Source: Akkermansiaceae bacterium (GTDB taxonomy: Bacteria > Verrucomicrobiota > Verrucomicrobiia > Verrucomicrobiales > Akkermansiaceae). Taken from it: a stretch of 64,000 nt of DNA. Of this stretch, positions 26,942 to 52,785 are shown one piece after another (within the stretch, counting starts at the first letter, position 1; every line of letters begins with the position of its first letter). Made by a program: the position numbers and the translations under genes. The notes below the pieces were generated by a model, which had not been told where the DNA came from, made no database searches, and saw nothing but the letters and a program-made list of their open reading frames with translations. The stretch covers positions 1,597,226 through 1,661,225 of the forward strand of contig CP059069.1 in assembly GCA_017798145.1 (NCBI GenBank), read 5' to 3'.

Positions 26942-26958
26942 GAAAGAGTAGCCGCTGT

Positions 26959-28422
26959 TTATGGGTTGGAGAGATCGCCGGCAAGGCTGCCGGGTTTGCC
27001 CCAGTCCGGCGGGCGGTCCACGAAGGCCGGCACATGATAGCCGACCTCCTTGGCGAGGCGGTCATGCTCGGCGAGCAGCTTCGCCTTGAGGGGTGCGGCG
27101 GCGGGATCGTTGATGAGGTTGCGGGTTTCGTAGGGATCCGCCTTGAGATCGAAGAGTTCCGTCCACTGCCTGAACCCGCGGTATTTGATCAGCTTGGCGT
27201 CCTTGGTGCGCACGGCGGTGATGTCCGGCACGCGGGTGCCCTTCTGGTTTTCGGTGAAATATTCATAGAACCAGCTTTTCCTCCATGCGGGATCCTCCCC
27301 GGTGAGCAAAGGGCGCCAGCTGCGGCCCTGCATTTCCGGATGTGGGGAAACGCCTGCGAAATCCAGGAGCGATTTCGCCAGATCAAGGTTGAGCACCATT
27401 TCGTCAACGGTGCGTCCACGAGCTTTTTCGCCCAGGGCCGGGTAGCGAACGATGAACGGGACGCGGAGGCTTTCCTCGTAGGCGCTGCGCTTGTCGCCGG
27501 TGGCGTGCGCGCCGAGGTAGAAGCCGTTGTCGGAGGTGAAGACGACGATCGTGTCCGATGCGGAACCGGACTCATCGAGCGCCTTGAGCAAGCGGCCGAT
27601 GCAGTCGTCCATCGCGGTGACGCAGCGGAAATAATTGAGGTTTGTGGGCTCTTTTTTCGGAACGGGTTTCGCCGCGCGCACAGGGTTCGGAGCGTAGATC
27701 GGCGGGGTGTTGACGTTCGGCACAGTCCGGGACAATTCGCCTGTGTAGAGATCCTTTGCGCGATCCGGCGGCTCCCATGGCTGGTGGGGGGTTTTGAAAC
27801 CGAGGATGAGCGACCATGGCTTGGCGGAGGCTTTCTGCTTTTCGATGAAATCGATCGCATAGTCCGTCGCCACGTCGTCCACCCAGCCCTTGGTGGGCGT
27901 GTTCTTGCCATCGACGATGTAAGGGCAGTCCTGGTAGCGCCCATGGCCCACGTAGGTGGCGGCATAGTCGAATCCCGGGCGCTCGCGCTGACTGCCCATG
28001 TGCCACTTGCCGACGTAGGCGGTGGTGTATCCGGCGCTCCGAAGCAGCGTGGCGTGGGTGATGTTTTTGACCGGAAAGGGGCGGAAGTTCGAGGCGATGC
28101 CGTTGCCTGCGTCATGGTTGTAGCGTCCGGTCAGGTTCACCGCGCGGCTCGGGGAGCAGAGCGAGTTGTTCACGAAGGCATTGCGGAAACGAACGCCCTC
28201 GGCGGCGAGGCGGTCGAGGTTCGGGGTCTTGAGCCAAGGGAATCTCCCTTTTTCGCCCAGTTCCTTTTGCACCACCGAGAGAGCCTCGTAGGATTGGTCG
28301 TCCGTGTAGATGAAGAGGATGTTGGGTCTGGCTTGGCCCTGGGCTTCGGCTGCGCGCAGGGCGCATGGCAGCGCCGTGAGGATGATGGCAAAGAGGGTGG
28401 TGAACGGTGTGTGCATGGCCAT
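26959..28422 (-). CDS. Secreted sulfatase (type I, CxPSR)
   Basis: The protein has 487 aa. The signal peptide has a possible second start, MHTPFTTLF, at 28416. The core begins with PNILFIYTDDQSYE, the maturation motif is CSPSR (Cys89-Arg93), and GKWHMG, KTPHQPW and VFTSDNG supply metal and sulfate ligands. The C-terminal half shows the usual R-x-W-F-Y-EYFTENQKG pattern of N-acetylglucosamine-6-sulfatase-like members, but the substrate cannot be assigned. It begins 3 bp after the third sulfatase, so the two are co-transcribed. Confidence 0.95.
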   Translation of the reverse strand: MAMHTPFTTLFAIILTALPCALRAAEAQGQARPNILFIYTDDQSYEALSVVQKELGEKGRFPWLKTPNLDRLAAEGVRFRNAFVNNSLCSPSRAVNLTGRYNHDAGNGIASNFRPFPVKNITHATLLRSAGYTTAYVGKWHMGSQRERPGFDYAATYVGHGRYQDCPYIVDGKNTPTKGWVDDVATDYAIDFIEKQKASAKPWSLILGFKTPHQPWEPPDRAKDLYTGELSRTVPNVNTPPIYAPNPVRAAKPVPKKEPTNLNYFRCVTAMDDCIGRLLKALDESGSASDTIVVFTSDNGFYLGAHATGDKRSAYEESLRVPFIVRYPALGEKARGRTVDEMVLNLDLAKSLLDFAGVSPHPEMQGRSWRPLLTGEDPAWRKSWFYEYFTENQKGTRVPDITAVRTKDAKLIKYRGFRQWTELFDLKADPYETRNLINDPAAAPLKAKLLAEHDRLAKEVGYHVPAFVDRPPDWGKPGSLAGDLSNP

Positions 28423-28425
28423 GGT

Positions 28426-29823
28426 CTAGTTCGCGTTTTGAAATCCTGTTGCGAGCAGTTTGCGCAACTCCCCGGAGGTTTCCGCATACCCGGGCTTTCC
28501 GCCCAGGTTGTGGTATTCTCCCGTGTCTGCGTTGTGGTCGTAAAGCTCAATGCCGTCCTTTCCATCCTTGCCCCACTCCGTGTAGCGCCAGCGCTGGGTG
28601 CGGACGCTGCGCCCGACCGTTTTGCCTCGGTTCACCTGGGTGTAGGCCGCCTTTTTCCCCGGCAGCTTCGGGTCTTCCAGCACCGCGCGGAAGCTTTCGC
28701 CGGAAAGGGGATGCGGAGCCTTCAGGCCGGCGCAGTCGATGAGGGTCGGATAGATGTCAACGAACTCGATGAGCGCATGGGTAGGCTGCCCCATGCCCTT
28801 TGCGCCGGGCACCCATGCCATCATCGGAGCGCCGGCGCACCTTTCGTAAACGGTCACCTTGTTCCACCACTCGTGCTCGCCGAGGTGATAGCCGTGGTCG
28901 CCGATGAGGACGACGATCGTATCATCCCATAGCTTGAGGCGATCCATCGCGTCGAAGACTTTCCCAAGCTGCGCGTCGGTGAAGCTGACGCATGCCTGGT
29001 AGGCGCGCTTGAATTCGCGGCGCTCCCTGTCGGTGAACGATGCGAAGTCGGTGTGGTTCGGGATCGCATACCTGACCTGCTCGGAGCGGTCGTCGGGCTC
29101 CACCGCGAGCTTGGTTTCACCCTCCGGATAGAGATCGAAGTATTTTTTCGGCGCGATGAACGGGTCATGCGGCTTGTGGAATCCGAGTCCAAGGAAGAAC
29201 GGCTTGTCGTGGTGTTCCTCAAGGATGCGGACGGCGGCCTTCGCGTTCAGCCCGTCCGCCTGATCCTCATCCCCGCCTGCCGCAGCCAGCCATGTGCACC
29301 ATGGGATTTTTCCGTGGGTCAGGTTTCGCCCTTCACCCGTGCGTCCCAGCTTGGTGGCATCTTTCGTGCCGTCGTAGAAATGCTGCCACGAAAGCGGATC
29401 CTCGAAGAGCACCTGCTTGCCGTCCCTTGGTTCCGCGAGGTGGAAGATCTTGCCGATTCCCGCAGTGAAATATCCGTTCTGGCGGAACAGCTGCGGCAGG
29501 CTGACCAAATCCGCCATGGCCTTCCGGAAAGGAAGGGTGTTCGTCACGATGCCGGTCTCATCGGGCCGCTTGCCCGAAAGGAAAGACGACCGGCTCGGAT
29601 TGCAGACGGGATACTGCGCATAGCCATTGTGGAACAGGACGCCCTTCTTCGCCAATCTGTCGATGTTCGGTGAGATGACCTCTTCAACGCCGTAACAGCC
29701 GAGCTCGGTGCGCAGGTCATCGACCACGATGAAAATGACGTTTCTCGGCTTCGCAGCCTCGGCACCGGAAATCGGCATTGAGCAGAGCGCCGATACGAGC
29801 GCAGACGTCACGAGATATTTCAT
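28426..29823 (-). CDS. Secreted sulfatase, iduronate-2-sulfatase-like
   Basis: First gene of the sulfatase operon, 465 aa from the ATG at 29823, which begins a clean signal peptide (MKYLVTSALVSALCSMPISG). The catalytic start is NVIFIVVDDLRTELGCYG, the maturation motif CNPSR (Cys74-Arg78), and it has GKIFH, FLGLGFHKPHDPF, VVLIGDHGYHLGEH and YPTLIDCAGL. This pattern is typical of iduronate-2-sulfatase-like proteins. A longer start at 29841 (MTTIVR...) is possible. An extended -10 promoter lies 56 bp upstream. Confidence 0.95.
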   Translation of the reverse strand: MKYLVTSALVSALCSMPISGAEAAKPRNVIFIVVDDLRTELGCYGVEEVISPNIDRLAKKGVLFHNGYAQYPVCNPSRSSFLSGKRPDETGIVTNTLPFRKAMADLVSLPQLFRQNGYFTAGIGKIFHLAEPRDGKQVLFEDPLSWQHFYDGTKDATKLGRTGEGRNLTHGKIPWCTWLAAAGGDEDQADGLNAKAAVRILEEHHDKPFFLGLGFHKPHDPFIAPKKYFDLYPEGETKLAVEPDDRSEQVRYAIPNHTDFASFTDRERREFKRAYQACVSFTDAQLGKVFDAMDRLKLWDDTIVVLIGDHGYHLGEHEWWNKVTVYERCAGAPMMAWVPGAKGMGQPTHALIEFVDIYPTLIDCAGLKAPHPLSGESFRAVLEDPKLPGKKAAYTQVNRGKTVGRSVRTQRWRYTEWGKDGKDGIELYDHNADTGEYHNLGGKPGYAETSGELRKLLATGFQNAN

Positions 29824-29878
29824 TCTAACGATTGTTGTCATGCGGGGAACCCCCCTTCCGACCACGCTTTGGCCTGAC

Positions 29879-29898: not shown

Positions 29899-30002
29899 CC
29901 ATCTAGTCCACAATACGACGACAAAACTAAACCTGCAGGATCGGTTGCCCTCATCGGCCAATCAGGAAACCAAATGCTGCTACAACATGCAGTGAGGAAA
30001 AC

Positions 30003-30020
30003 GGTCGGGACGGCCAGATT
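30003..30020 (-). repeat. Short second copy of the tRNA-Pro 3' end
   Basis: These 18 bases equal the acceptor and part of the T arm of the tRNA-Pro fragment at 30197-30242, in the same orientation about 195 bp away. Direct repeats of a tRNA 3' end are a typical footprint of site-specific integration. Confidence 0.55.
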
Positions 30021-30051
30021 GACTCCACTCCGTTCCGTCTAAGCTATTTCA

Positions 30052-30196: not shown

Positions 30197-30242
30197 TGGT
30201 CGGGACGGCCAGATTCGAACTGACGACATCCTGCTCCCAAAA
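30197..30242 (-). tRNA. tRNA-Pro(TGG), 3' half only
   Basis: Read on the minus strand: anticodon loop TTTGGGA (anticodon TGG), the 3' anticodon-stem strand GCAGG, variable loop, a T arm GTCAG-TTCGAAT-CTGGC with full pairing, acceptor strand CGTCCCG, discriminator A and encoded CCA. The 5' half (D arm, 5' acceptor) is absent; sequence similarity stops at the anticodon loop. It is therefore non-functional. Truncation exactly there is what integration by a tyrosine recombinase leaves at the far attachment site. Confidence 0.75.
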
Positions 30243-30344
30243 GAGACCGTTTATCAACGATTGCTGGCACTGATTAGACCATTCGTTGTCATGGACACCA
30301 TGTTCGGACCATTCCTGACTTTTAGGGTTGATTCGGTGACAATT

Positions 30345-30665
30345 TTACGTGCCGGTCACTCCCGGCTTTATCATGCCGATCGCAAGTTTGTGGGCTTCCC
30401 TGACGGTGCGCACCAATCGCCTTTGTGCGTCGCTGGCCTTGCCTTCCAGATACGTTCTCGTCATGTCGCGCAAGCGCCCTGAAGTGAGGGTTTTGCCGCC
30501 GTGGATCAGATTTCAATTTCGGATTCCCGACTCGGCCAGCGTCTTGGAAACGATGCGAAAACCGGCCTCGCTGGCGCGGTTACCCGTGCGCAAGGCCTCG
30601 ACTTCCGCCGGAGTCTTGATCTGCCGCTCGGGGAAAGGCCCGTTGTCATCGGGATATCGAGAGTC
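30345..30665 (-). pseudogene. M24 peptidase (Xaa-Pro aminopeptidase-like) pseudogene
   Basis: One minus-strand frame reads FPERQIKTPAEVEALRTGNR, then ASEAGFRIVSKTLAE..., the standard N-side of M24 aminopeptidases. An in-frame TGA (30513-30515) interrupts it. The frame then goes on with LIHGGKTLTSGRLRDM and ends with AHKLAIGMIKPGVTG plus a stop, the family's helix before the catalytic core. Both ends of the catalytic pita-bread domain are missing. It lies directly next to the tRNA-Pro scar and behind the glycosidase operon. Confidence 0.7.
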
Positions 30666-30705
30666 ATACCGGCTTCACGCAAGCCGATCATCGGATCACC
30701 AGAGG

Positions 30706-32751
30706 CTAGTCTCGGTTACCGGTGACTGTCACGGCGTGTTCCGCGCCAACCGGCATGGTCTGATCGTAGAGCACATTTTCTCGAGTGTCGGTGACAACCA
30801 ACCGGATCGCATGGCCGCTGCGGCTGACATCCAGCGTATGGATGCCGCCGTAGCCGTGCAGGCGCCCGATTCTCATCGATGCCCACCCGTCGGGGAGCCG
30901 TGGTGTCGCTGCGAATGAGCGGAATCCGGTCGGCCTGAGCCCGAACATCCCTTCGATGAAAATCCTTGCGTAGAGACAGCTCTCGCCGGATAGGTGGGAC
31001 ATTCCGTGTTCGGGGAAAGCCTCGACCGCGTAAGGGACGTGACTGCCAAGCAGCCGTTGCCGGGTAAAGCTATCCAAGTATTGAATCCCCCGCTCGGTGT
31101 CTCCGGCGATGAACGTGGCGCGCAGGGCGAATAGGGTGGATCGATCCCAAAAGGTCTTGTCCTTGGCATCGGTGCGCAGCCCGTCGGAAGTCCACAACTC
31201 AGGGGAATAGACGGCATCGAGGGTGCCCTTTGCGCGATCCGTGATGCCGTAGGCCAGCGGCAGGCAGATCCAAGCCCGGAGGTTTTCCAAGCCCTCGTGG
31301 TAGCGGTAGGTTTCGAATCCGGAAACTGTCGCCCCGAAATGTTTCTCTATCGCCGCCCGCAGTTCCTCCGCCCGCTTCTGATAGATTTTGGCGCGTTCAT
31401 CGGGCAATCCGAGCTCGCGGGAAAGATGGGTGGCGGAAACAAGGGCATCATAGGCTAGCGATGAGGTCGCAAGGTTGGTCTTGCCGGCTGAGAAACGGTT
31501 CTCCAGTTCATCGGAGTCCGAGGCGATCACTCCGTCCGCTGTTTTTTTCCGATCGCAGTATTCGAGGCACCATTCAATGAGCGGCCAGACTTCGTTTGCG
31601 ATCTCCCTGTCGCCGCAGGTGAGGGCGAAACGCGTCGCTCCCTGCGCGACCATTGCGGCATCTCCGCGATCGCCGGCACCATTCCAGATCCCACGCCCTT
31701 CCGCTATGATGGACGAGGGAAGCGGATTGAAATCCGGGTTCATGTGTTTTGCAAACCAGGCAAAGGTCACGCGGGCGGATTCGATCCCGGCCGGATCGCC
31801 CAGATAGGGATGAAAGGGAGCCATATACTCCGCATTGTCGTTGCACCACATCGAGGCTAGATAGCTGTTACGGCCGCCGGGGCCTTGCATCAGTCCGCCA
31901 CGGGTGGCGTTGATCGATTCGACGGTCCGCAGCTTTGCCATGGCGAACATCCTGTTGAGCGCCGGATCCGGAGTGGTGAGCTTCATGGCGGAGTCCAACC
32001 TGTCGGCCAAGGCTTTGCGGGCTGCCCATTCCGCGCCGATGTCGGGAAACAACGCCGCGTCGGCAGGCACTGCGCCGACCGCGCCTTCGCGCCCGGAAAA
32101 TACCAGTCCCGCAGGCATGGTCGAACCCGGAGCGATGGAAAACTCCCCGGCTCCGATCCATTCGGTGCGCATCAGGTGGGGAGCCCATTTCCCATCGGCC
32201 GCAGGGATTTCCACTTCCTCGACTGTCCGTGGGATCGAGATGACCAGAGGCGAATCCCCGGTGTTCCTGAATTCCCAGCGTTCCAGAATTGCGGCCGACG
32301 CGGTCGATGCGAAAACCGTGCGCCGGATCTCAAGCGTCCCGGCAAGTGTCGTGATCGTCAGTCCTTCGCGGATGGAAACACGGACCAGCTTTTGATCCGG
32401 AAGGGGCTTGCCATCCAATGACGGCAGCGGGTCGTCCCCCGAATGGAAGGCATGTTTCACGCTGCCGTGCGTATCGTCCTTTTTCTGGCGCAACAATGGA
32501 AAGCGGACAATCCGGTTCAGCTCAGGAGCTCCGGTCGCGGAGACCTTCCACTCGATGATGGCATCCACCGTCCGCCCTCCCATCTCGATATGATCTGAAT
32601 ATTCGTCCTTTCCGGCCAACAGCGTCACGGCATCGGCGGAGATTCCGCTTTCCGCCCCGAGTGTCCAATGCTCTTCAGCGGTGAGGCTGGGTGCCGCAGC
32701 GAGGAGGATGGGGAACGCGATCGTGAGGATTCTGGGGATATTCGGAGTCAT
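30706..32751 (-). CDS. Secreted six-hairpin glycosidase-like protein
   Basis: The protein has 681 aa, with a signal peptide from the ATG at 32751 (MTPNIPRILTIAFPILLAAAP). An N-terminal beta-sandwich (about 30-255) is followed by an (alpha/alpha)6-barrel (about 270-600) with repeated Trp/Asp/Glu-rich helices: LASMWCNDNAEYMAPFHPYL, SIIAEGRGIWNGAGDRGDA, HLSGESCLYARIF. A small C-terminal beta domain follows. This is the six-hairpin layout of rhamnosidase- and GH63/GH95-like hydrolases; acidic residues in the GAGDRGD and HLSGES blocks are candidate catalysts. Last gene of the 40633-30706 operon, 19 bp after the acetylesterase homologue. The exact GH family is not assigned. Confidence 0.8.
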   Translation of the reverse strand: MTPNIPRILTIAFPILLAAAPSLTAEEHWTLGAESGISADAVTLLAGKDEYSDHIEMGGRTVDAIIEWKVSATGAPELNRIVRFPLLRQKKDDTHGSVKHAFHSGDDPLPSLDGKPLPDQKLVRVSIREGLTITTLAGTLEIRRTVFASTASAAILERWEFRNTGDSPLVISIPRTVEEVEIPAADGKWAPHLMRTEWIGAGEFSIAPGSTMPAGLVFSGREGAVGAVPADAALFPDIGAEWAARKALADRLDSAMKLTTPDPALNRMFAMAKLRTVESINATRGGLMQGPGGRNSYLASMWCNDNAEYMAPFHPYLGDPAGIESARVTFAWFAKHMNPDFNPLPSSIIAEGRGIWNGAGDRGDAAMVAQGATRFALTCGDREIANEVWPLIEWCLEYCDRKKTADGVIASDSDELENRFSAGKTNLATSSLAYDALVSATHLSRELGLPDERAKIYQKRAEELRAAIEKHFGATVSGFETYRYHEGLENLRAWICLPLAYGITDRAKGTLDAVYSPELWTSDGLRTDAKDKTFWDRSTLFALRATFIAGDTERGIQYLDSFTRQRLLGSHVPYAVEAFPEHGMSHLSGESCLYARIFIEGMFGLRPTGFRSFAATPRLPDGWASMRIGRLHGYGGIHTLDVSRSGHAIRLVVTDTRENVLYDQTMPVGAEHAVTVTGNRD

Positions 32752-32770
32752 GACAGTGGGGAGATTGGAA

Positions 32771-34342
32771 TCAATCGACATCCGTCCGGAAGGGCGAGGC
32801 GGGAAGGCCTTCTCTATTGAAGAGGTTGACGTCGGGGACGTTCGCCCAACCATAGCGGACGGCTTGCGGATCGGCCACGCCATCGGCGGATACGACTATC
32901 GTGGAACCTTCGATTTCCGCCCTGGCGGGCACGAATTCCTTGTCCTTCCCGGCAATGGTGAATCCTTTGAGCGGCCCGTCTTTTGCCATCAATCCACCGC
33001 CAACGTGCTGGAAGCTGAGAATGATTTTTCCGATTTCCACCTTCATCGAATCGTAGAGCGGACCCGAGTATTCGATGGCCTCGCCGTAGGCTAGGGCGCG
33101 GGCGGCGATAGCGAGGCGCTGGCCGACGGGTTCCTTTTGCTTGGGGTGGATGTCATCGGCGTCGCCGAAATCCGTGGTGACCGTCATCGCGGTGTTCTTG
33201 ACTTTGCCAAGGGAGAGGAACTGCGCCTCGCGGATCTCGGGCGGCATCCCACCCCAGGGTGCGACCTGGACGTAGAGGAAGGGAAAATCGCCTTGCTTCC
33301 AACGCGTCCGCCAGTCGGCGATCATCGCGGGGAAAAGTGTTAGATATTCCTTCGCGCGGCCGGAGTTCGACTCTCCCTGATACCAGAGGACACCCTTGAT
33401 GCCGTAGGGGACAAGCGGGGCGATCATACCGTTGAAGAGGACTGCGGGATCGGTGGGCTGGCCTTCGGGCGGCACGGGAGCCTTGGGCGGACGCGGGGGT
33501 CTGGGCCGGCGGGGCGCGGGCTGGCCGGCCTCCTTGGCTTTTGCCACAGCCTCATTCCATGCCTTGAGCTTTTCCTTTTGCACCTTGGCTTTGGTCTCGT
33601 TCCATTCAGCCAACCGTGTCTCATGCTCGGCGAGTTTCGCGGGATATGTGGCGGTTTCGGCTTCGTAGTTTTCCCGCCTGCGGATGACGGCATCGACGTA
33701 TTCCTGCATTACGGGATCCGTTTTCAGCCCTTCGAGGCTGGTCCATGCCTGCGCGGGTGTGGCGCCTAAGGCGGAATGGATCAAGCCGATCGGCACGCCG
33801 AGCTTGCGGTGGATGTCACGGGCGAAGAAGTAGCCGACTCCGGAGAATTCGTTGACGGTTTCGGGCGAGCAAGCGATCCAAGCTCCTTTCGCTTCCGCAA
33901 GCGGGGTTAAGGAAACGGTGACTGGCACCTTGAAGGAGCGGATTTCCGGGTAGTTCGCTTTCGGAGCCTCCTCCGCAGCGTTGTGCACCCTTGAGAAAAG
34001 CAGGTTCATGTTCGATTGCCCGGAGCAGAGCCAGACCTCGCCGACGAGCAGGTTGTTCACGGTGACGGTGTTGTCGCCGGTAAGGGTCATGGTGAAGGGG
34101 CCGCCTTCCTTGAGGGGGTCGAGATGCACACTCCACTTGCCATTGGCGGCGGTGGTGGTCGCCTTCTGCCCCTGGAACTCGACCGTGACCTTCTCGCCAT
34201 CGCGGGCGGTGCCCCAGACCGGGATCGCCTGTCCACGTTGCAACACCGCACCGTCGGAGAACAGTGTGTTAGGCTTTACCTCGGCGCACAGCGAGCTGGT
34301 TAAAGCCGCAGCTATGGCGAGGACGGAGAAGTTAGGGTGCAT
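32771..34342 (-). CDS. Sialate O-acetylesterase family protein
   Basis: A secreted SGNH/SASA esterase of 523 aa. A signal peptide (MHPNFSVLAIAAALTSSLCA) precedes a jelly-roll opening LFSDGAVLQRGQAIPVWG, nucleophile block VWLCSGQSNM (Ser110), block III GVLWYQGESNS, and a DxxH pair in ADDIHPKQK. A long charged helical insert (about 240-310, Lys/Glu/Pro-rich) is unusual for the family. It removes acetyl groups, most likely from a polysaccharide in this operon. The frame is open further upstream, but the ATG at 34342 fits the signal peptide and leaves 7 bp after the previous gene. Confidence 0.92.
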   Translation of the reverse strand: MHPNFSVLAIAAALTSSLCAEVKPNTLFSDGAVLQRGQAIPVWGTARDGEKVTVEFQGQKATTTAANGKWSVHLDPLKEGGPFTMTLTGDNTVTVNNLLVGEVWLCSGQSNMNLLFSRVHNAAEEAPKANYPEIRSFKVPVTVSLTPLAEAKGAWIACSPETVNEFSGVGYFFARDIHRKLGVPIGLIHSALGATPAQAWTSLEGLKTDPVMQEYVDAVIRRRENYEAETATYPAKLAEHETRLAEWNETKAKVQKEKLKAWNEAVAKAKEAGQPAPRRPRPPRPPKAPVPPEGQPTDPAVLFNGMIAPLVPYGIKGVLWYQGESNSGRAKEYLTLFPAMIADWRTRWKQGDFPFLYVQVAPWGGMPPEIREAQFLSLGKVKNTAMTVTTDFGDADDIHPKQKEPVGQRLAIAARALAYGEAIEYSGPLYDSMKVEIGKIILSFQHVGGGLMAKDGPLKGFTIAGKDKEFVPARAEIEGSTIVVSADGVADPQAVRYGWANVPDVNLFNREGLPASPFRTDVD

Positions 34343-34349
34343 GTCTTGA

Positions 34350-36200
34350 CTACTTGGGCTGACCCAGGGTTTTGAGACGTTCGAGAATTTCCACGGCGCG
34401 TTTCGCTTCTTCGGTGCGGCGGTATTCAAGGCGCGCCTTCGCATCGTCTTTTCTCTCTTTATCAATCTCACGCGAGATGGGTTTCACGGCCGGGTCCTCT
34501 TCTTCGGGCAAGTCCCAGTCATCGGTGCGGAAGCTCGCCAGCGGGATATCCTGATCCCCGTTGCACTTGAGGTTGCCGATCGGGCAGTTCCCCCAGGCGT
34601 AGCGGACGGCGACGGGCTTTTCCACCAGCGGGCTCCAGACCTGGATCGTCCGGTTGGCTTGCTGGCGGGCGTCTTTCTTTTCCCAGGCCTGAAAGCGGGC
34701 ATGGGCCATGTAGAACTTGCCGTCCTCGCCGGCGATCGAGAAACCGCGCGGAATTTTCTCCCCGTCGTCCGGCAGCACCCTCCCGTCGAAGGTAAGAACC
34801 ATCATGTCGTCCTTGGGCTCCGCCGAAACCAGATTCACCGATTTCCAATCGAATCCTTTGACCTCGTAAACCTCACTGAGCGCCCAGCGTGCCGCACGCC
34901 AGCCGTGCTCGCGTTTCTTGTTCGGATGCAGGCCGGGTGCCTGCACGTCATATCCCGGGATGAACACCGCGGGCCCCGTGCCCGCGGCCTCGGCAAGCCC
35001 AAGCCGCTGTGATTCGCGGATGTAGGGCCCGGTATCGATCGATCTCTCCTCGAAATTTTCCCCGTTCTGCATCTGCCCGCCATCGGCGCAAAAACCGATG
35101 ATCCCGACGGCCAGATTCGGATCGTTGAAGTCCTCGCGCCAGCCCTCGACCATGAGTTCCATCAGCTTGCGGTAGCGTTTGGGCCGGCAGTTGTCCCCTA
35201 TCGTGTTGTTGTAACCCTGGTGGAACAACACGCCCTTGATGTTGTAGCCCTTGAAGACGCCGAAATAGCCGTTGTGCACGCTGGCCATGTCACTCGGGCT
35301 TTTCCCCGGCACGTTCCATGAGCGCAGGTTCTTCGGATCGGGTCTTTCCGGCTCGGGTTGTTTCAATCTCTTGGCGCGTGCCTTTTCGGCCTCCCAGATG
35401 CGGTCCGCTTCGGCCTCGGGGTCGAAGGCGGCCATCCGGGCTTTCACGTGGTCCGCGTATCGCTTGGTCAGCGGATCCTCATCGAACTTGTGGAGCGGCA
35501 CCATGCTTTCGATCGAAGCCCCTCCCCGCGCGACCTTGATCAGGCCGATCGGGATGCCGACCGAGCGCTGGACGTTCGAGCCGAACACGTAGCCGATGCC
35601 GGAAAACTCGGCCGCCGTCTCCGGGCTGGAGACCACCCAACCGCCGGTGGTCACCGCATCGGGTAGGATGTCATCCTGGAGTGACGCCTGTTCGTTGGTG
35701 GAGATCGAAAATAGCCGCAGGTTGGGAATGTTCGCCTGGGCGGCCAGGGTCCGGCCATTGGTGCTTTGCAGGGGGAAAGCCATGTTGCTCTGCCCGTGCA
35801 TCACCCACACGTCGCCAACGACGATGTTCGACAGCTCCACCTTCTCGGTGCCGGAGTTGACGGTCAGGGTCTGCGGTTCGGCGCTGGCTTCCCGTTCGGG
35901 CAGGGTCACCTCCCAGCGCCCTTTGCCGGCGTAGGCCTCGCTTTGTCCGAAGACATTCACGGGTGCCGCTTTCGCCACGACGGCGGTGGCGGTGTCCGTG
36001 CCGAGTTTCACGGAAACCTCGTCACCGGGTTTTCCCCAGCCCCAGATCTTGATCGGTTTGCCGCGCTGCAGGACCATGTCGCTGGAGAAGATATTGTGAA
36101 GCTTGAGGATCTTTGCTTGGGCTGCCACTTGTGCGGAAGCAAGCGGAGTGAGGAGCACCATGCAGAGCATGGCAGCGAGCGAGCGGATGGTTGTTTTCAT
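34350..36200 (-). CDS. Sialate O-acetylesterase-like protein
   Basis: A secreted protein of 616 aa in the SASA/SGNH fold. Signal peptide MKTTIRSLAAMLCMVLLTPL; opening LHNIFSSDMVLQRGKPIKIWGWG; nucleophile block VWVMHGQSNMAF; block III GVLFHQGYNN, where family members usually have GE, so the acid partner has changed; catalytic-type His in DVQAPGLHPNKKREHG. It is a close paralogue of the gene at 48243-50129. It sits 19 bp after the DUF6288-like gene and 7 bp before the next acetylesterase homologue, inside the operon. Confidence 0.87.
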   Translation of the reverse strand: MKTTIRSLAAMLCMVLLTPLASAQVAAQAKILKLHNIFSSDMVLQRGKPIKIWGWGKPGDEVSVKLGTDTATAVVAKAAPVNVFGQSEAYAGKGRWEVTLPEREASAEPQTLTVNSGTEKVELSNIVVGDVWVMHGQSNMAFPLQSTNGRTLAAQANIPNLRLFSISTNEQASLQDDILPDAVTTGGWVVSSPETAAEFSGIGYVFGSNVQRSVGIPIGLIKVARGGASIESMVPLHKFDEDPLTKRYADHVKARMAAFDPEAEADRIWEAEKARAKRLKQPEPERPDPKNLRSWNVPGKSPSDMASVHNGYFGVFKGYNIKGVLFHQGYNNTIGDNCRPKRYRKLMELMVEGWREDFNDPNLAVGIIGFCADGGQMQNGENFEERSIDTGPYIRESQRLGLAEAAGTGPAVFIPGYDVQAPGLHPNKKREHGWRAARWALSEVYEVKGFDWKSVNLVSAEPKDDMMVLTFDGRVLPDDGEKIPRGFSIAGEDGKFYMAHARFQAWEKKDARQQANRTIQVWSPLVEKPVAVRYAWGNCPIGNLKCNGDQDIPLASFRTDDWDLPEEEDPAVKPISREIDKERKDDAKARLEYRRTEEAKRAVEILERLKTLGQPK

Positions 36201-36219
36201 GAGGTCAAATGGGGTGAGT

Positions 36220-38454
36220 TTATTTTCCTGCGGCAATCGCCTCCTGCATGGAAATCAGTTTACGCGGTGGATTCGGATCGCCCTCAACGGCTTTCACCAT
36301 CGCTTGATACAGGTTCCCCGCACGCTTGAAATTCGTATCTTTCAGGCCTGCTTGATACTTTTCCAAAGCCCCCTTCGCCGCGGAACCGTAGGCGGAGAGC
36401 GCCACCCAGGTGGCGCGGTGGCAGAACATGGCTTTCGATTTGGGGCGGAACTCGGGGATCCTCAGCGCGTAGTCGAGACCCTCCCTGATGTTCAGGCTCG
36501 CCAGCAGAGCGATGGCCGGACCGACGTCCTGCTGGGGCGCGCTGTAGCTTGTCCAGTCGGGATCCTTGCCTTCGATCACGTGGATGACACTGTCCGCCAC
36601 GAGGTGGAAGTCTTCCAGCGGCATCCCCACCAGCATATCCATGCCGTATCCCCTCGGATGTTGGTCCCGGTCACCCGCCAACCTGAGCGCGACCCGGTAA
36701 AGCAGCTCTTTGTCAGTCACCAGATCCGACTGAAAAGGATGCGCGCAAAGGGTGTTGAGGAGCTTTCCAAAGTTCACCTCTTCGGTGGTGTCAGCCAACT
36801 TGAGAAGATCCATGTAGTATTTCTGTGCGGGCGCTCCCATGTAGGCGATCGACTGGGCCGCGGCTTCCCGGAGTTCTTCGGATTCCTTCGAATCTGTCAG
36901 GACTGCACCGATCGCAGGAAGCAGCGGCAGTTTGACTTCGGGCTTGATCCACCAACCGAACTGGCTGATGGCCGTCATTTTCTGCTGATCCGTGCCGGTC
37001 TTGAGCCATTCCACGTAAGAGGGCGTCAGTTCCTCCCTGTGGGAGCCCAGTGCCCCTATCGCCATGCGCCTGATCTGGGGCATGGGATGGCTGTTGGAAA
37101 TCTCCAGAATCTCCTTCGGGCTCTTGTCCTTCAGATCGGTCTTGCTGACCATGATCGTTTCCATGACCTCATCGCCCTTCGCCCAAATGGAGGGGTCCAT
37201 CTCACGGCCGGTGACGATGAGCGCCTTGCGCCCGAGGCAGTGGTTCAGAAGCGCCACGCCATCGATGTTTCCCGCCTTGTCATCGCCGGACCATGTGCCG
37301 TCACCATGGCGACGCATGTTGTAGAACCAGAGGGTTCGCTTGAAATGCTCGCTGGTCACTTCGGGACCCGAGCGGGCGGCTCCGATCGACGTCCACAATG
37401 GGTTGAAGAAGGCGCTTGCATGCCCTTGCTCCAGCTCATCGTAACTGGTGGCCGAGCAGATGGAATAGAACCTGGTCCCGGCTTTGTCGCCCAGCAGTTC
37501 GAGACAAACGGCCGCGGATCCGCTCATGCCGTTGTTGTTGAATCCGGCACTGTTGGAACTTCCCATACCATAGGGAAACGTCCCCTTGCCCACGTATATC
37601 TGGATATGGCTGTTTGTTGTCCGAATGGCCGCATCGAGCTTCGGATCGTTGACGCCCGCCTTCCTGGCCATGAGCATTCCCATCATGCAACTGAGCGTGG
37701 TCTGGTTCATCGGGCCGTAGCCGGGAATCCTGTTGAAATTGTTAGGGTCAGCCACACGGTGTCCGTAAACCCCGCGGCTATCCTGTCCCTTGGCGAGGCT
37801 CAAGGCCAGGGAGCGCAAGGCGGGCATGACGGACTCGTCCTTGGTCAGCATGTAATACTCCGCCAAAACGATGGCCCTGTAACCCCAATACCATGTGCAG
37901 TATTGGTGGGGAGACAGAAGTTCGCCATCGCCTTTCGCCCAGTCCTTGTTGCGTATCGATTCAAAGGCGGCCTCCATGTATTTCTTCTCGCCGGTCGCCA
38001 TCAGGGCGAGTTCCTCGATGGCGAGCCGGTCTCCATGACCTTCCATCAGGCGCTCGGCCGTCATGGTGATGATCCTGTCGGTCTTGGCGCATGAGAACGG
38101 CGCGGTCTTGCTGTAGCTCCCCAGAACCGGCAGCGTGATGGTGACGGTTTTGTTGCCTTTGAGCATGAGGGTCATTTTCCCGCCGGCTTCTTCCGTTTCC
38201 GCAAGGTCAATGGCTGCCGCCATGTCACGGCTGGCGTCCTTGAAAGCGGTGTTTCCCACGCCGACAATCACTTCCCCTTTCTTGAGAAAACCTTCGGCGG
38301 GTGATTGCTCCTGAACACCTGCAACCTGGATCTGATTCTTCGAAACGGAACCGATGATCCCCGTGGGACCAACGATGGTGCCTGCCACTTCATTTTTGTC
38401 CGCCGCAAAGGAAAGGGCACCCGTGAGGAGCAGGATGCTGATGATGTTTCTCAT
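36220..38454 (-). CDS. Secreted PDZ / helical-toroid protein (DUF6288-like)
   Basis: The protein has 744 aa. A signal peptide (MRNIISILLLTGALSFA) is followed by a PDZ-like domain (about 20-105: GPTGIIG, GVQEQSPAEGFLKKGEVIVGVG). An alpha/alpha-toroid (about 115-480) carries MMGMLMARKAG and YWGYRAIVLAEYYMLTKDE, and a HEAT-like C-terminus (about 480-740) completes it. This matches the uncharacterised DUF6288 group of Verrucomicrobia and Planctomycetes. It is probably periplasmic and follows the transglutaminase-like gene by 7 bp. The role is unknown; a toroid next to a glycosidase and esterases suggests carbohydrate binding or processing. Confidence 0.82.
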   Translation of the reverse strand: MRNIISILLLTGALSFAADKNEVAGTIVGPTGIIGSVSKNQIQVAGVQEQSPAEGFLKKGEVIVGVGNTAFKDASRDMAAAIDLAETEEAGGKMTLMLKGNKTVTITLPVLGSYSKTAPFSCAKTDRIITMTAERLMEGHGDRLAIEELALMATGEKKYMEAAFESIRNKDWAKGDGELLSPHQYCTWYWGYRAIVLAEYYMLTKDESVMPALRSLALSLAKGQDSRGVYGHRVADPNNFNRIPGYGPMNQTTLSCMMGMLMARKAGVNDPKLDAAIRTTNSHIQIYVGKGTFPYGMGSSNSAGFNNNGMSGSAAVCLELLGDKAGTRFYSICSATSYDELEQGHASAFFNPLWTSIGAARSGPEVTSEHFKRTLWFYNMRRHGDGTWSGDDKAGNIDGVALLNHCLGRKALIVTGREMDPSIWAKGDEVMETIMVSKTDLKDKSPKEILEISNSHPMPQIRRMAIGALGSHREELTPSYVEWLKTGTDQQKMTAISQFGWWIKPEVKLPLLPAIGAVLTDSKESEELREAAAQSIAYMGAPAQKYYMDLLKLADTTEEVNFGKLLNTLCAHPFQSDLVTDKELLYRVALRLAGDRDQHPRGYGMDMLVGMPLEDFHLVADSVIHVIEGKDPDWTSYSAPQQDVGPAIALLASLNIREGLDYALRIPEFRPKSKAMFCHRATWVALSAYGSAAKGALEKYQAGLKDTNFKRAGNLYQAMVKAVEGDPNPPRKLISMQEAIAAGK

Positions 38455-38461
38455 ACGTTCC

Positions 38462-40633
38462 TCAGTTGACCGGCGTGAGCGTGAAATCCCTGATCGCGAT
38501 GCCTTTGCGCATGTCCTCGGGGCGGGCGAAGGTCAGGGTGTTGGAACCCGCTTTCAGATCCACGATGACGGGTGCGCTGGTTTCCCACAGACCCGCTTTG
38601 AAGGGGATCTCCATCTCCACCGGTTCCGCGCCGTTGGCGGAAACGAGCAGGCTCATGTCCCAACGGGAACTGGCCATTCTCGAAGTGAGGTCATATTTGC
38701 CAGCCTTCGGGGCTTCGAAGTTGTATTCCAGCAACTGCGAGCCGCCATAACGCGAATAGATCAGCTGCATGCCGCCGAGCTTGCTTTCCGCGAAGGAGAC
38801 GGCGTTGTGCTGACCCCATGCGGCTCGCGCCACGTTGTCCGCAGGGATTTTGGTCGCGACGGCGGGGATGGTGATCACGCCTGAGGTGCCCACGCTCACC
38901 GCGCGTTCCGCTGCCGGGGCTTCCGTGACGGGGCTCGGGACTTTGTAGGGATTGATCCGGTTCGGCCTTTTGCCATCCGCAATGCGATCCTGCTCAATGA
39001 TGGCAGCCGCATGCCAGATTTCGGGCACCACTTTGGGATCACGCATTCCGTAAACCTTGGGTTCGCCCATGACATCGCCGATCCATTGGGCGCGCTTCAC
39101 CTTCATGAATTCGGTTTCGTTTTCGCGGGCTTGGGTGGTGGCCACGAAATGCATGTCCGCACCGTAGGGGGGGACGCGGGCACGGTTGCCGAAATCACCG
39201 CCGAGGTAGGTGAGCCAGCCATCCGGTGTCCACTGGACCAGCGTCGCGTGGCCGGGTTCGGGGCGAGCCAAGGTCGGGATACCGAAAGACTTGAGCGCAA
39301 AGCGCCCGAAGAAAGCGCGGCGTCCGCAAATCCCGCCATTGGCAAGGACGTTCTGCATGAACATCAGCTCGGGACGGTCTTCTTTGACAAACGAACTGGT
39401 ATACTGGATTTCGGAATCGACGGATTGGCTGTAACGCAGGTCGTTGTAATCCCGCTGAATGAGATCCGGGCGATAGCTGCGCATCATTTCTCGGCACCAG
39501 GCATGGGCTTCGTCCGGATCCTCGCCGTCGACCACGGCGGTCAGCTCCCAAGTGGTGAGATCCTTGAATGCGGGATCGAGTTCGCCTGCGAGAAACGCTT
39601 TTTCGAAGCTCAGGTAACGCTTCAAGGGATCGATGGTTTCCGTGTAATTCTTGGGAGAATCACCATTCCGCATAAACATCGGCACGGCATGCTCCAGGCT
39701 TGTCGCAACCGCCAGTCTCTGCAGCACGCCTTCCTTGGCCTTCGGGCTGGCTTGCAGGATGGACTGGTAGATTTTCACCGCTTCGCCGTATTTGCCCCAT
39801 TTGGCTCCGTCGGCGACGAGCATCTGCAGCATCAGCGGGGTGTCGGACAAAAGCTGATCTAGCAATTTTTTGTTCGTCGGGCTTTCCTGGGCGAACTGGG
39901 CGAGGAAACGCGGATGCCCCTCCGAAAGGACAACGAATTGGGCGAGCTTGGTGTCCAGCCTGTCGCTGGCGAGGATTCCGCCGAAGCCGAGGGAATCGAG
40001 GGCTTTGCGTGTCTCCACCTTCGCGCTCATGCCCGCTTGTTCCGCCGCTTCGACCTTTTTCATCAGCTCCGCCTGGACGGCAGCCGCGTTTTCGAAGGTT
40101 TTTTTGGCTTTCTCGACATCCGAAGGGAGCTTCTCCAACTGCTTTTTGGCGCTCTCCAACTGCTTCTGTTGATCCGCAACGAGCTTGGCTTTGGCGGGAT
40201 CGCTGTCCGGCAATGCGACCAGCTCCTGCAGTTTCCTCTCGGCGGCCGTCACGCGGGAAGGAGCACTGCGCAGTTGCTCGACAAGGGCGTTGTATTTGTC
40301 CTCGCTCTGGCGCGAGATGCGCAGCGATTTGTCAACCGCAGCGAGCTCTTTCTGGGAGCCGAGCTCCGCTTTCAGCAATTCAATCAGGGCGGCCTGCTTC
40401 GCATCATCCACCGTAGGGATTTCCCTTTGGATCTCCTCGCGCAGCGAGTTGAGCATCGCGGTGTATTCCGCCTCGAGCTTGATGCCTTCCGGAGTGAGAT
40501 CCACAAGGGTTTCCTTCATGTTGCCGTCTTTGCGCAGCTTGATTTGCGGTGCCTCGGGTGATGCCGCCACGGCGAATACCGAGAGAAGGGCGAAGCCGCA
40601 AAGGGCTGCGAGGATGGACGAATGATGCTTCAT
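38462..40633 (-). CDS. Secreted transglutaminase-like protein with coiled coil and CBM-like domain
   Basis: First gene of the 40633-30706 operon, 723 aa. A signal peptide (MKHHSSILAALCGFALLSVFAVA) is followed by a long helical, probably coiled-coil part (about 40-260, Lys/Glu/Gln/Ala-rich). A transglutaminase-like core has NGGICGRRAFF (Cys), PEPGHATLVQW (His) and TYLGGDFG (Asp), at about residues 425-480. A C-terminal beta-sandwich (about 600-723; AGKYDLTSRMASSRWDMSL, WETSAPVIVDLKAGSNTLTF) looks like a carbohydrate-binding CBM35/DUF5077-type domain. Whether it acts as a peptidase or cross-linker is unknown. A dyad operator lies 117 bp upstream. Confidence 0.8.
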   Translation of the reverse strand: MKHHSSILAALCGFALLSVFAVAASPEAPQIKLRKDGNMKETLVDLTPEGIKLEAEYTAMLNSLREEIQREIPTVDDAKQAALIELLKAELGSQKELAAVDKSLRISRQSEDKYNALVEQLRSAPSRVTAAERKLQELVALPDSDPAKAKLVADQQKQLESAKKQLEKLPSDVEKAKKTFENAAAVQAELMKKVEAAEQAGMSAKVETRKALDSLGFGGILASDRLDTKLAQFVVLSEGHPRFLAQFAQESPTNKKLLDQLLSDTPLMLQMLVADGAKWGKYGEAVKIYQSILQASPKAKEGVLQRLAVATSLEHAVPMFMRNGDSPKNYTETIDPLKRYLSFEKAFLAGELDPAFKDLTTWELTAVVDGEDPDEAHAWCREMMRSYRPDLIQRDYNDLRYSQSVDSEIQYTSSFVKEDRPELMFMQNVLANGGICGRRAFFGRFALKSFGIPTLARPEPGHATLVQWTPDGWLTYLGGDFGNRARVPPYGADMHFVATTQARENETEFMKVKRAQWIGDVMGEPKVYGMRDPKVVPEIWHAAAIIEQDRIADGKRPNRINPYKVPSPVTEAPAAERAVSVGTSGVITIPAVATKIPADNVARAAWGQHNAVSFAESKLGGMQLIYSRYGGSQLLEYNFEAPKAGKYDLTSRMASSRWDMSLLVSANGAEPVEMEIPFKAGLWETSAPVIVDLKAGSNTLTFARPEDMRKGIAIRDFTLTPVN

Positions 40634-40867: not shown

Positions 40868-42301
40868 CTAGGCTCTCAGGAACTGCCGGATGGCCCCGAC
40901 CTGATCCAGCTTTTTGCGCGACATGTCCAAGTCAAGGTCGCCGTAGTGTTGGATCGGGTTTCCATGTGCGTTGAGAAGCGTGGTGTACCAGTTGCCGATG
41001 GTCTTGTGGCCTTCGGTCGCGTGGTAAGGCAGGCGGGTGTAGCGGCCGAGGATGTCCAGGGCGCACTTGTCCCCGGCGACGATGACAAACGGAGCCTCCC
41101 AGCCCAGGCCGTGGTGGGTTTCGCCACCTTCGGGGAAATACATGATCATGGTGTGGTCGAACATCGTGCCGTTTCCCTCGGGGATGGCTTTGAGTTTATC
41201 GGCAATGGTCTTGACCTGGTTGATGTGGGAATGGTGGATCTTTTCCCGGATTTGCGGTGCGGTAACGCCGGAGTAGCCGCCATTGTGGCCGACCTCATGG
41301 ATGGAGATGCGATCGGTCTCGTTGCCGGGCAGCCCGATGATCGGCGTGTTGAGCATGTCGATCGTGTACGTCACGACGTTGGTGAGCCCGCTGGCAAGCG
41401 CGGCCACCAGGACATCGGTCATGGCCTCTTGCTTTTGCATGTTGTTGGCCAGCGGCCCGCCGTTTGCGTGGATCGGGTCGATCTTGGGGAGGAATTGCTT
41501 GATGGTGCCGGACATGGTCGCGAGCCGCTCGTTGCGGGCTTGGATCTCTTCGATCGAGGAGATGTGGCTGGAGAGTTTTTCCTTCTCATAGCCATGCAGC
41601 AACTTGGTTTTCAGGTTTTCTTCGTTCTCCAGGAAGGCGAGCATCTTATTCCCGGAACCCGCCGACTTCGGATCGACCGCCGACCGGAACAGTTCATTGT
41701 AGGCGGTCATCGGATCGGTGTAGCAGTAGTTGCGCTGATGCGGGCCGGGCGCCGAGTATCCGGGTTGGATGCCGGTTTCGAAATTGGCGTCATTGCCACG
41801 CAGCGCGAGTTCGACGTGGCCGAAGGGCGACGGGAAGAGCTTTGCGAGCTCGAAGTCGATGGTCGCGCGCTTGATGCCGCTGAGCGAGTTCCCGCCGGAC
41901 TTGTAGGCGCCCATCACGGAAGACCAGGAGTAGTGGCCGTTTTCGCTCATCCTTGTGGAGAAGCCCTGGATGAGCGCCATGTTCGACTTGTAGCCTTCGA
42001 GCGGGCGCATCCATTCCTGCAATTCGTGATCGCGCAGATCGGTTTCGAACGGCTGTTTCTTTTTCTCGAGGTTCGCCTGGTCTGCGGTGAAAGTGGGCAA
42101 AGCGAGATCATTGGGTCGTTGTCCGTTGGCCTTGCGGATGAAGACAAAGCGCCGGGGCACGCCGCCCAGCAGGCTGGGCGTCACGCCTTTCACCCCGTCC
42201 TGGACGGTGTTGGCGAGCAGCGAGCTGAAGGTGGGGGCGAGGGCGAAGCCGCCCACGCCGAAGGCGGATGTTCTGAGGAAGGATCTGCGGGTGGTGTCCA
42301 T
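40868..42301 (-). CDS. DUF1552 protein, Tat-exported
   Basis: The protein has 477 aa. The N-terminus has a twin-arginine signal (RRSFLR) and a hydrophobic stretch to about residue 32. The body has the DUF1552 marks: FVFIRKANGQRPNDL, HSYSWSSVMGA-like YSWSSVMGAYKSGG, SAPGPHQRNYCYTDP, PEGGETHHGLGWEAPFVI and the C-terminal GNWYTTLLNAHGNPIQHYGD. DUF1552 proteins are sulfatase-fold relatives that are nearly always encoded next to DUF1592 genes, as here (4 bp after the stop of the 1033-aa gene). Their biochemical job is unknown. Confidence 0.93.
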   Translation of the reverse strand: MDTTRRSFLRTSAFGVGGFALAPTFSSLLANTVQDGVKGVTPSLLGGVPRRFVFIRKANGQRPNDLALPTFTADQANLEKKKQPFETDLRDHELQEWMRPLEGYKSNMALIQGFSTRMSENGHYSWSSVMGAYKSGGNSLSGIKRATIDFELAKLFPSPFGHVELALRGNDANFETGIQPGYSAPGPHQRNYCYTDPMTAYNELFRSAVDPKSAGSGNKMLAFLENEENLKTKLLHGYEKEKLSSHISSIEEIQARNERLATMSGTIKQFLPKIDPIHANGGPLANNMQKQEAMTDVLVAALASGLTNVVTYTIDMLNTPIIGLPGNETDRISIHEVGHNGGYSGVTAPQIREKIHHSHINQVKTIADKLKAIPEGNGTMFDHTMIMYFPEGGETHHGLGWEAPFVIVAGDKCALDILGRYTRLPYHATEGHKTIGNWYTTLLNAHGNPIQHYGDLDLDMSRKKLDQVGAIRQFLRA

Positions 42302-42305: not shown

Positions 42306-45407
<3,102 letters not shown>

Positions 45408-45496
45408 TTCGGGTTTGCAGATTCAGGATCGGATTGAGCTTCAAATACAACGGCTCCCACGAAATCTCTCGGAAAAATTTCGAAATCCATCGGACT

Positions 45497-45523
45497 AACT
45501 GTATCTAATAAAGGAGTAGTTAT
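45497..45523. promoter_or_regulatory. Repeated dyad operator, site B
   Basis: AACTGTATCT, AATAA, then AGGAGTAGTT; the second arm is weaker. It lies 90 bp upstream of the 1033-aa DUF1592 gene (start 45407). Confidence 0.55.
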
Positions 45524-45554
45524 GGGAACCTTGGAACCGGAACCCATCCAGCAA

Positions 45555-45589
45555 AAAAGCCCGCCAAAGGGTTCCTTCGGCGGGCTTTT
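45555..45589 (-). terminator. Rho-independent terminator after the PEP-CTERM gene
   Basis: AAAAGCCCGCC and GGCGGGCTTTT pair over 11 bp, extended by AAGG/CCTT, with a T run on the minus strand. It is 16 bp beyond the stop of the 508-aa PEP-CTERM gene. A degenerate copy lies at 47844-47876. Confidence 0.8.
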
Positions 45590-45604
45590 GGATAAGTCGG
45601 GCAT

Positions 45605-47362: not shown

Positions 47363-47559
47363 GGAAAGCGGCCTGGCGTTTTCGGGTGCCCATTTGTTGG
47401 CGTCGCGCTCGCGCTTGACCTTCTAGGCGGCTTTCCTGCTTTCGATAGGTTCTTCGGGGAGGCGGTCGAGAGGCCAGTGGGGTCGGGGTGATGGGATGCC
47501 GTGAAAACTTTCTCCGCCCGCGCCACGAGATCCGGGCGGTCTGCGGAGAGATCCTTGGA

Positions 47560-47700
47560 TTCGAGGGTCTGCTGGGCTCGCGCGGCCTTGGCGGCGATCA
47601 GATCGTTTCCAGCCGCCGGGCGCGCGGAGACGAGAACACACCCGGCAAGCAAAACGCCCGGGCTGATATCCTTCGGCAGGTTGTGAAGGTTTTTCCGTTT
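47560..47700 (-). pseudogene. DUF1592 gene, N-terminal remnant
   Basis: The minus frame reads GVLLAGCVLVSARPAAGNDL, then AAKAARAQQTLESKDLS, matching GVLLTGCVLVSARPADGNEV and AANAAPGQQTLESKAMN of the intact 1033-aa protein. After that, similarity ends before the heme motif. The initiating ATG is not present. It is part of the duplication 47552-47941. Confidence 0.65.
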
Positions 47701-47786
47701 GTCTGCGCAGATTCCGAATCGGATTCAGTTTCCCATACAACGGCACCCGCGAAATTTCTCGGAAAAACTTCGGGATCCATCGGAGT

Positions 47787-47812
47787 GACTATATCTCCAA
47801 AGGGATCGTTAT
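47787..47812. promoter_or_regulatory. Repeated dyad operator, site H (decayed)
   Basis: GACTATATCT, CCAAA, then GGGATCGTTAT. It matches site B position by position in the duplicated segment but both arms have drifted; it stands before a dead DUF1592 copy. Confidence 0.4.
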
Positions 47813-50129: not shown

Positions 50130-50250
50130 GCTTCTTGTAGCTTGGGTTTCGGTTTGGAAGGGCTTGGTTTGTCCGCAGCGGTGGCAGCTCGGTATCTTAC
50201 ATCGCCGGATGGAAAAAACTCTCGGATGAAAATCGGATTTCTCACGCAGC

Positions 50251-52771: not shown

Positions 52772-52785
52772 TGAAACCTCCTATC

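Follow-up and report, generated by a model that had tools for sequence, protein, structure and literature searches.

What does an apparently transglutaminase-like protein with a carbohydrate-binding tail do in the company of carbohydrate esterases? The question is raised by five genes, B1 to B5, that occupy positions 30706-40633 on the minus strand of a 64,000-nucleotide stretch of DNA from an Akkermansiaceae bacterium (contig CP059069.1), hereafter the window. Read from position 40633 downward, these open reading frames follow one another in the order B1, B2, B3, B4, B5 at intervals of 7, 19, 7, and 19 bp, and all five products begin with a hydrophobic, signal-like N-terminus (11-residue maxima of 2.25-2.73), as judged by Kyte-Doolittle hydropathy and not by a signal-peptide program. 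To this extent the preliminary description of the DNA, which listed five genes, gaps of 7-19 bp, and a signal peptide on every protein, is upheld, and the gene spacing suggests that B1-B5 constitute one operon. As had also been noted, neither a transporter nor a SusC/D gene is present among the five; furthermore, a Pfam search of 15 proteins (the cluster together with the tested neighbours) reveals no SusC/SusD pair of the kind that marks a Bacteroidota-type PUL. This absence is not odd, because the Verrucomicrobiota MAGs of PMC8857213 were likewise found to have no SusC/D, at least in the part of that paper that was available; one A. muciniphila mucin locus is said to resemble Sus in the accessible portion of a 2026 study of glycan use in Akkermansiaceae (PMC13174399).

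Two of the proteins can be assigned with ease. B3 (34350..36200; 616 aa) and B4 (32771..34342; 523 aa) are carbohydrate esterases of the SASA family (PF03629), scoring 52.5 and 66.9 bits, respectively, against a Pfam cut-off of 24.8, which is far enough above it to bear out the earlier claim of two acetylesterase homologues. SASA esterases carry a GQSN motif and an Asp three residues before a His; the translation of B4 contains both, and that of B3 contains GQSN together with a candidate His that has no Asp at the three-residue spacing. A paralogue of B3 (66% identical) lies at 48243-50132, and relatives of B3 are found in 136 of 141 order-level genomes, SASA genes being common. B2 (36220..38454; 744 aa) is a DUF6288 protein (PF19805; 372 bits versus a cut-off of 26.3), one of 13 in its genome that score above the cut-off (15 match rows, with one gene split and one row below it); no papers describing DUF6288 were found in the literature searched. 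B2 had been called a PDZ-toroid protein, and its N-terminus does give a PDZ-like match, at the sub-threshold score of 17.8 bits versus 23.2. Similarly, the assignment of B5 (30706..32751; 681 aa) as a glycosidase goes as far as "putative six-hairpin, GH78-like": no family model matches B5 above threshold, and the one match it has, to the six-hairpin rhamnosidase (GH78) model, reaches 20.1-20.3 bits, below the cut-off of 24.5. Of five members of the B5 family, B5 itself is the one that yields this sub-threshold match. Its relatives are sparse, occurring in 5 of 141 order-level genomes (its own included) and in 32 of 387 phylum-level genomes, with weak matches alone in eight.

Are the five genes a conserved unit? 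The preliminary description had named conservation of gene order in relatives as a check on its operon. This check was run by searching with B5 at the order and phylum levels and by scanning 24 B5 loci in other genomes; the order of the five genes did not turn up elsewhere, and the idea of a conserved five-gene operon was rejected. Beside B5 in one of the 24 loci (L140, in genome G009) lie DUF6288 and SASA genes, and another (L268) has one weak sulfatase match near the B5 relative; the remaining 22 contain no partner family, several of the contigs being short. G009, an assembly of about 150 contigs, possesses relatives of B1, B2, B3, and B5. Contig C108 carries its nearest B2 and, six kb further along, a partial B1 relative; C115 carries its nearest B3 and several B1 relatives; and C126 carries its B5 relative along with other DUF6288 and SASA genes. 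Given that the B2 relative begins 204-273 bp from a contig end, a B1-type gene may lie directly before it; one of the B1 relatives in G009 runs off another contig. The five-gene set is a local mixture.

At least one member of this mixture appears to have traveled by itself. B2 is 88.6% identical to the gene in G009, a genome from a different family, and the similarity at the DNA level (86.2%) spans positions 36219-38455, that is, the gene alone; 271 bp of the G009 contig precede the B2 relative. Furthermore, agreement at four-fold degenerate sites between the two genomes is 65% for B2 (319 sites), compared with 38% for RecA, 48% for B3, and 43% for B1. This pattern fits a recent transfer of B2 as a single gene, and either direction is possible.

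The cluster is located at one end of a segment of 34.2 kb that looks like an old mobile island. The left boundary of this segment is a 145-bp direct repeat (30197..30341, minus strand), which is 97% identical to genome positions 1661650-1661794; the right copy has the same orientation and corresponds to window coordinate 64425-64569, beyond the window end. The first 45 nt of the repeat (30197..30241, minus strand) are the 3' 45 nt of tRNA-Pro(TGG), and this piece is identical in three places: here, at window coordinate 64425-64469, and in the intact tRNA gene about 62 kb away (genome 1689162-1689238). A second segment, of 27.5 kb, lies between the first and the tRNA gene and likewise has this tRNA piece at its end. 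Repeats of tRNA ends of this kind are what integration into tRNA genes leaves behind. Within the 34-kb segment there are PIN-domain and FitA-like antitoxin genes and a GntR-type regulator. However, none of the 10 tyrosine integrase match rows in the genome falls between 1.627 and 1.689 Mb, and consequently the segment would be a remnant or would have been moved by other means. Rfam reports nothing above gathering scores in the window, and ARAGORN reports no tRNA there because the tRNA copy is partial.

The presence of this boundary alters how the flanking genes are viewed. The cluster had been described as sitting head-to-tail with a sulfatase operon, and three sulfatase genes (25577..29841) are indeed on the same strand. 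However, they lie outside the repeat-bounded segment, about 865-880 bp from B5 (the start codon of the first sulfatase being uncertain), and the interval contains the tRNA-Pro 3' fragment, a second short copy of a tRNA piece at 30002-30021, and, between the cluster and the tRNA fragment, a broken M24-aminopeptidase-like remnant (30348..30674, minus strand). One of the two pieces of this remnant matches aminopeptidase profiles weakly (best E 4.4e-4), and the other is 67% identical to a copy elsewhere in the genome that is open (genome position 343360). Because of the boundary between them, a functional tie of the cluster to the sulfatase operon was set aside. On the other side of the cluster, two minus-strand genes had been missing from the earlier account: A2 (40868..42301), a DUF1552 (HXXSHH) protein gene 234 bp upstream of B1, and A1 (42306..45407), a PSCyt1/DUF1592/DUF1588/DUF1585 protein gene 4 bp upstream of A2. 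A terminator scan of the 234-bp gap yields no minus-strand site, a result that is little informative given that the number of sites called by the scan is about that expected by chance (24 versus 20.2). A1 and A2, a PSCyt1/DUF1592 and DUF1552 pair with sulfatases nearby, resemble the neighbourhoods of planctomycete-type cytochrome (PSCyt) proteins with sulfatases described in the available part of PMC5615132, and they may be part of the same unit as B1-B5, to which they are tied by position only.

What does recur is a pairing of two of the gene types. In B1 (38462..40633; 723 aa), the signal-like start is followed by a stretch of long helices (about residues 48-214), a transglutaminase-like core (residues 353-560; 38954..39577), and a C-terminal CBM6/35-like domain (residues 585-721; 38471..38881). 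A scan of genome contigs with the single B1 sequence found no relative; a profile scan of the contigs gave 226 confirmed relatives, and 52 of 141 order-level genomes (its own included) have matches at E <= 0.001, many of them weak. Neighbours were counted for the best-scoring 80 of the 226, which make up 79 loci, many on short contigs, from Verrucomicrobiota, Planctomycetota, and single records labelled Lentisphaerae and Spirochaetaceae, mostly metagenome-derived. One B1 relative (L193) is in the genome of Haloferula rosea, a relative that can be cultivated. Among co-directional neighbours no more than 400 bp away (150 aa or longer and not themselves of the B1 type; one duplicate removed from 90 rows), 33 of 89 are SASA by Pfam, and the next family accounts for 3 of 89. 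By gene position, SASA genes are found at 44 of 148 adjacent positions (38 on the strand of the B1-type gene), 7 of 116 second positions, 5 of 104 third positions, and 6 of 320 positions further out; adjacent versus third and beyond (11 of 424) gives an enrichment of about elevenfold and a Fisher p of 7e-19. By locus, a SASA match is present in 43 of the 79, within 700 bp in 34, and absent from 36; short-type SASA genes predominate as partners (38 loci), and the longer B3/B4 type occurs in 11. In the order-level loci, 13 of 44 B1-type matches have SASA within 700 bp, 10 of them on the same strand.

Some care is needed in reading these numbers. Loci that share a genome or contig do not count as independent; the two sets of loci have genomes in common (G009 is also L155), and L055 and L056 overlap. 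The positional and locus counts come from HMM scans of stop-to-stop frames, in which the gene calls around the matches are mechanical, and these same loci supplied part of the material for the SASA models, whereas the count of 33 of 89 uses Pfam instead. Nevertheless, the pairing of the B1 type with a SASA esterase recurs in Planctomycetota and Verrucomicrobiota far above chance, and the combination of a transglutaminase-like domain with carbohydrate enzymes, to which the preliminary description had drawn attention, is thus seen across two phyla. The closest B1 relative among the 79 loci (48% identical) belongs to a Phycisphaera MAG (L154), where the gene for a B3-like esterase lies 68 bp upstream of it. 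In the window itself, the immediate neighbours of B1 are A2 and B2, and the SASA genes begin one gene further downstream. The same genome gives 6 match rows for the B1 type, which come down to five genes because one is split; of the four other than B1, three (L051, L052, and L054) have no modelled partner family in the 19-kb stretch around them.

DUF6288, by comparison, does not hold up statistically as a specific partner of the B1 type. It is present in 8 of the 79 loci and is adjacent to the B1-type gene in 3 of 148 cases versus 6 of 424 further off (p 0.70). Its strand agrees with that of the B1-type gene in 10 of 10 cases in one scan and in 9 of 10 in another, the two having different match and gene lists. 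The B1 type, SASA, and DUF6288 do occur together on the same strand in four loci (L167, L228, L063, and L088); in the first of these, from a planctomycete, a B1-type gene is followed by DUF6288 at 52 bp, and SASA genes lie on either side.

Given these findings, it could be postulated that B1-B5 form no functional unit at all, that is, that five unrelated exported genes were gathered on the island by chance and have at most a promoter in common. The gene order found nowhere else, the movement of B2 alone, and the lack of enrichment of DUF6288 beside the B1 type would all be expected if this were so. However, such a chance pile-up does not explain why the B1 type and SASA are paired in two phyla, why the genes are spaced as tightly as 7-19 bp, or why the B1 type, SASA, and DUF6288 are found together in the four loci above, and we consider it unlikely. 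The neighbours also bear on what the substrate could be. Genes near relatives of B1 or of DUF6288 include SASA, GH95, GH29, GH28, GH2, GDSL esterases, and sulfatases, and the families beside B1 relatives fit decorated polysaccharides as a target. The earlier suggestion had been a glycoprotein or a peptidoglycan-like polymer; peptidoglycan was dropped when no supporting family was seen among the neighbours of B1 relatives, whereas a glycoprotein may still be the target.

The central question is then what kind of protein B1 is. It has no Pfam match at E <= 0.01 and hence no Pfam catalytic family, and a transglutaminase model is absent from the 20 Pfam families matched at E <= 1 by B1 and 14 relatives; CBM_6 is matched in 6 of these 15 sequences, B1 not being among the 6. 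The AlphaFold model of the whole protein is good (mean pLDDT 86.6, pTM 0.85); that of the core alone has a mean pLDDT of 83.8 and a pTM of 0.88. Structure comparison of the model identifies the C-terminus as a CBM6/35 beta-sandwich (Z 14.7, 122 residues aligned, rmsd 2.1), and so, as regards fold, the CBM half of the earlier label, "transglutaminase-like/CBM protein", stands. The other half leans on weaker matches. With the core, Foldseek gives no match at E <= 0.001, and a viral structure search gives nothing at that threshold. In a second structural comparison, which covered the 436 chains ranked highest by Foldseek, rows 1-16 are all transglutaminase-superfamily folds, with a best Z of 6.8 and none of 8 or more. 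The best is 3isr, a putative cysteine protease (127 residues, rmsd 3.6); also present are TglA (Z 6.0), TG2 (5.8), TgpA (4.5), and arylamine N-acetyltransferase (4.3), and TG3 and CPR-C4 are within the top 16. We take 3isr, the N-acetyltransferase, and CPR-C4 to be members of the superfamily. The models thus lean toward a transglutaminase-like fold for the core, short of proof. Matches of the core to CBM48/AMPK-like domains (best E 0.0016) were discarded as chance, because an alignment-based search does not repeat them.

Transglutaminases use a Cys-His-Asp triad. In an alignment of 38 sequences, B1 included, whose members are 37-47% identical to B1, Q427, C436, and H462 are invariant. The Cys and the His are likewise invariant in 44 of 44 sequences of a wider set with distant relatives (some rows of which come from overlapping loci), and Q427 drops below the 85% listing there. 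At the position of the usual catalytic Asp, which was matched by eye to the known motif, there is Leu in 37 of 38 sequences and Phe in one. In the B1 model, C436 is predicted to start a helix and H462 to lead into the next strand. B1 thus resembles TgpA, TglA, TG2, and arylamine N-acetyltransferase in having a Cys at a helix start and a His on the following strand, although the structural match is weak, and it differs from them in lacking a Pfam match, in the replacement of Asp by Leu, in its CBM tail, in being exported, and in its long helical N-terminus. Distant relatives of the core, whose similarity to B1 is weak, have ricin-type or F5/8 C domains in place of the CBM, which suggests that sugar-binding-type tails recur on this core; in one of them the core is joined to a protein kinase domain. 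The relatives that bear F5/8 C domains come from small genomes, which belong to a different genus within the family.

The loss of the canonical Asp might indicate that B1 is catalytically dead, with the fold retained as a scaffold or binding module and the esterases and glycosidases doing all of the work; the weaker structural matches of the core include menin, which is not known to be an enzyme. However, a discarded active site would not be expected to keep both its Cys and its His unchanged in 38 of 38 and 44 of 44 sequences, and so we regard an inactive B1 as improbable. Still less probable is that B1 is a cross-linking transglutaminase that fixes secreted enzymes or surface proteins together or to a substrate particle while the CBM anchors the complex on the glycan: the transglutaminase-like fold rows, long helical N-terminus, and CBM would suit such a role, but B1 lacks the usual Asp, what recurs beside its type is esterases rather than surface or matrix proteins, and bacterial members of the transglutaminase superfamily are mostly hydrolases.

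Taken together, these results favor another model, to which we assign a probability of roughly 0.55. In this model, the cluster is a Sus-less locus for the degradation of glycans by secreted proteins, assembled from separately moving genes at the end of a 34-kb island remnant at tRNA-Pro(TGG), in which B1 is a CBM-targeted Cys-His enzyme that works with de-O-acetylating esterases. B3 and B4 would remove O-acetyl groups from the glycan, and B5 would probably cleave glycosidic bonds. B1 would dock on the glycan through its CBM6/35 domain, which is predicted to bind sugar, and its Cys-His centre would act on an amide- or ester-linked decoration, by hydrolysis or acyl transfer, such that this decoration comes off along with the acetyl groups. 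B2 would be an exported accessory protein. Among the Cys-centred members of the superfamily are both amide hydrolases and enzymes that transfer acetyl groups, and the pairing with esterases fits a job for B1 on acyl decorations.

A more ambitious proposal can be offered tentatively, and we hold it to be possible but distinctly less probable than the model itself: that B1 founds a class of Cys-His enzymes, guided by their CBMs and present in Planctomycetota and Verrucomicrobiota, which together with SASA esterases remove or transfer an amide- or acyl-linked glycan decoration. If so, this would be an activity absent from the predictions of current carbohydrate-enzyme lists, and the same chemistry could concern mucin, given the F5/8 C-bearing relatives within the same family.

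Parts of this picture have precedents. Sus-less clusters and PSCyt-sulfatase neighbourhoods are already described in the portions of PMC8857213 and PMC5615132 that were available. B1-B5 are like the PUL-like clusters of Verrucomicrobiota in the first of these in that exported hydrolases, esterases, and sulfatases are clustered without SusC/D, but they lack GH29, GH95, and a sugar transporter and include a transglutaminase-like/CBM protein and DUF6288. The word transglutaminase is absent from the main text of PMC8857213, and both transglutaminase and acetylesterase are absent from the main texts of PMC5615132 and PMC13174399, insofar as these texts were available. B3 and B4 are members of a known esterase family by the Pfam cut-off; what is added to that family here is the pairing of its genes, mostly shorter than B3 and B4, with the B1 type in two phyla, for which no description was found in the literature searched.

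The breakdown of complex glycans in Verrucomicrobiota and Planctomycetota uses many exported proteins that have no assigned role. The B1 type has an invariant Cys and His, bears a sugar-binding tail, and is accompanied by acetyl esterases in two phyla; these features make it a candidate for an enzymatic step that is so far missing, and its pairing with SASA hints at an unrecognised step in the breakdown of complex sugars. Furthermore, the island setting suggests that loci such as this one are built gene by gene on tRNA-linked segments rather than as fixed operons.

Two island-like segments lie in tandem, one of 34.2 kb and the other of 27.5 kb. Each terminates in the last 45 nt at the 3' end of tRNA-Pro(TGG), and no tyrosine integrase was found near either segment. 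One repeat copy carrying this 3' piece lies at 30197-30341 and the other at genome positions (contig CP059069.1) 1661650-1661794; the intact tRNA-Pro(TGG) is located at genome 1689162-1689238. Extra short copies of the tRNA 3' end, which have 1-2 mismatches in 20 and are spaced by 136-195 bp, sit downstream of the tRNA fragment (30002-30021) and of the intact tRNA (genome 1688653, 1688789 and 1688975). The fragment is also adjoined by a broken M24-aminopeptidase-like remnant (30348-30674), of which an open copy is present at another site of the genome.

Within the 34.2-kb segment, a gene of the PATR-repeat type that carries a weak PEP-CTERM tail occupies 45605-47131 on the minus strand, and its 3' end is included in a 411-bp repeat (77.6%; 45263-45673 and 47553-47943). 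At 51317-52100 and 52406-53578 lie a PDDEXK_3 gene and two PIN-domain genes, one of the latter accompanied by a FitA-like antitoxin. The second DUF1552/DUF1592 pair of this segment (53592-58083) has 79.7% DNA identity with a pair at another site of its own genome (L101) and about 70% with locus L151.

On the plus strand, a 4216-aa open frame (7710-20360) adjoins genes that, as judged by eye, resemble a MoxR/DUF58-type cluster. At another compared locus (L044:163-3741), a distant relative of the core of B1, the transglutaminase-like gene, is part of a fusion with two further domains, protein kinase and F5/8 C. Translation, together with Pfam analysis of a part, indicates that glycan-degradation-type genes are numerous in both tandem segments.
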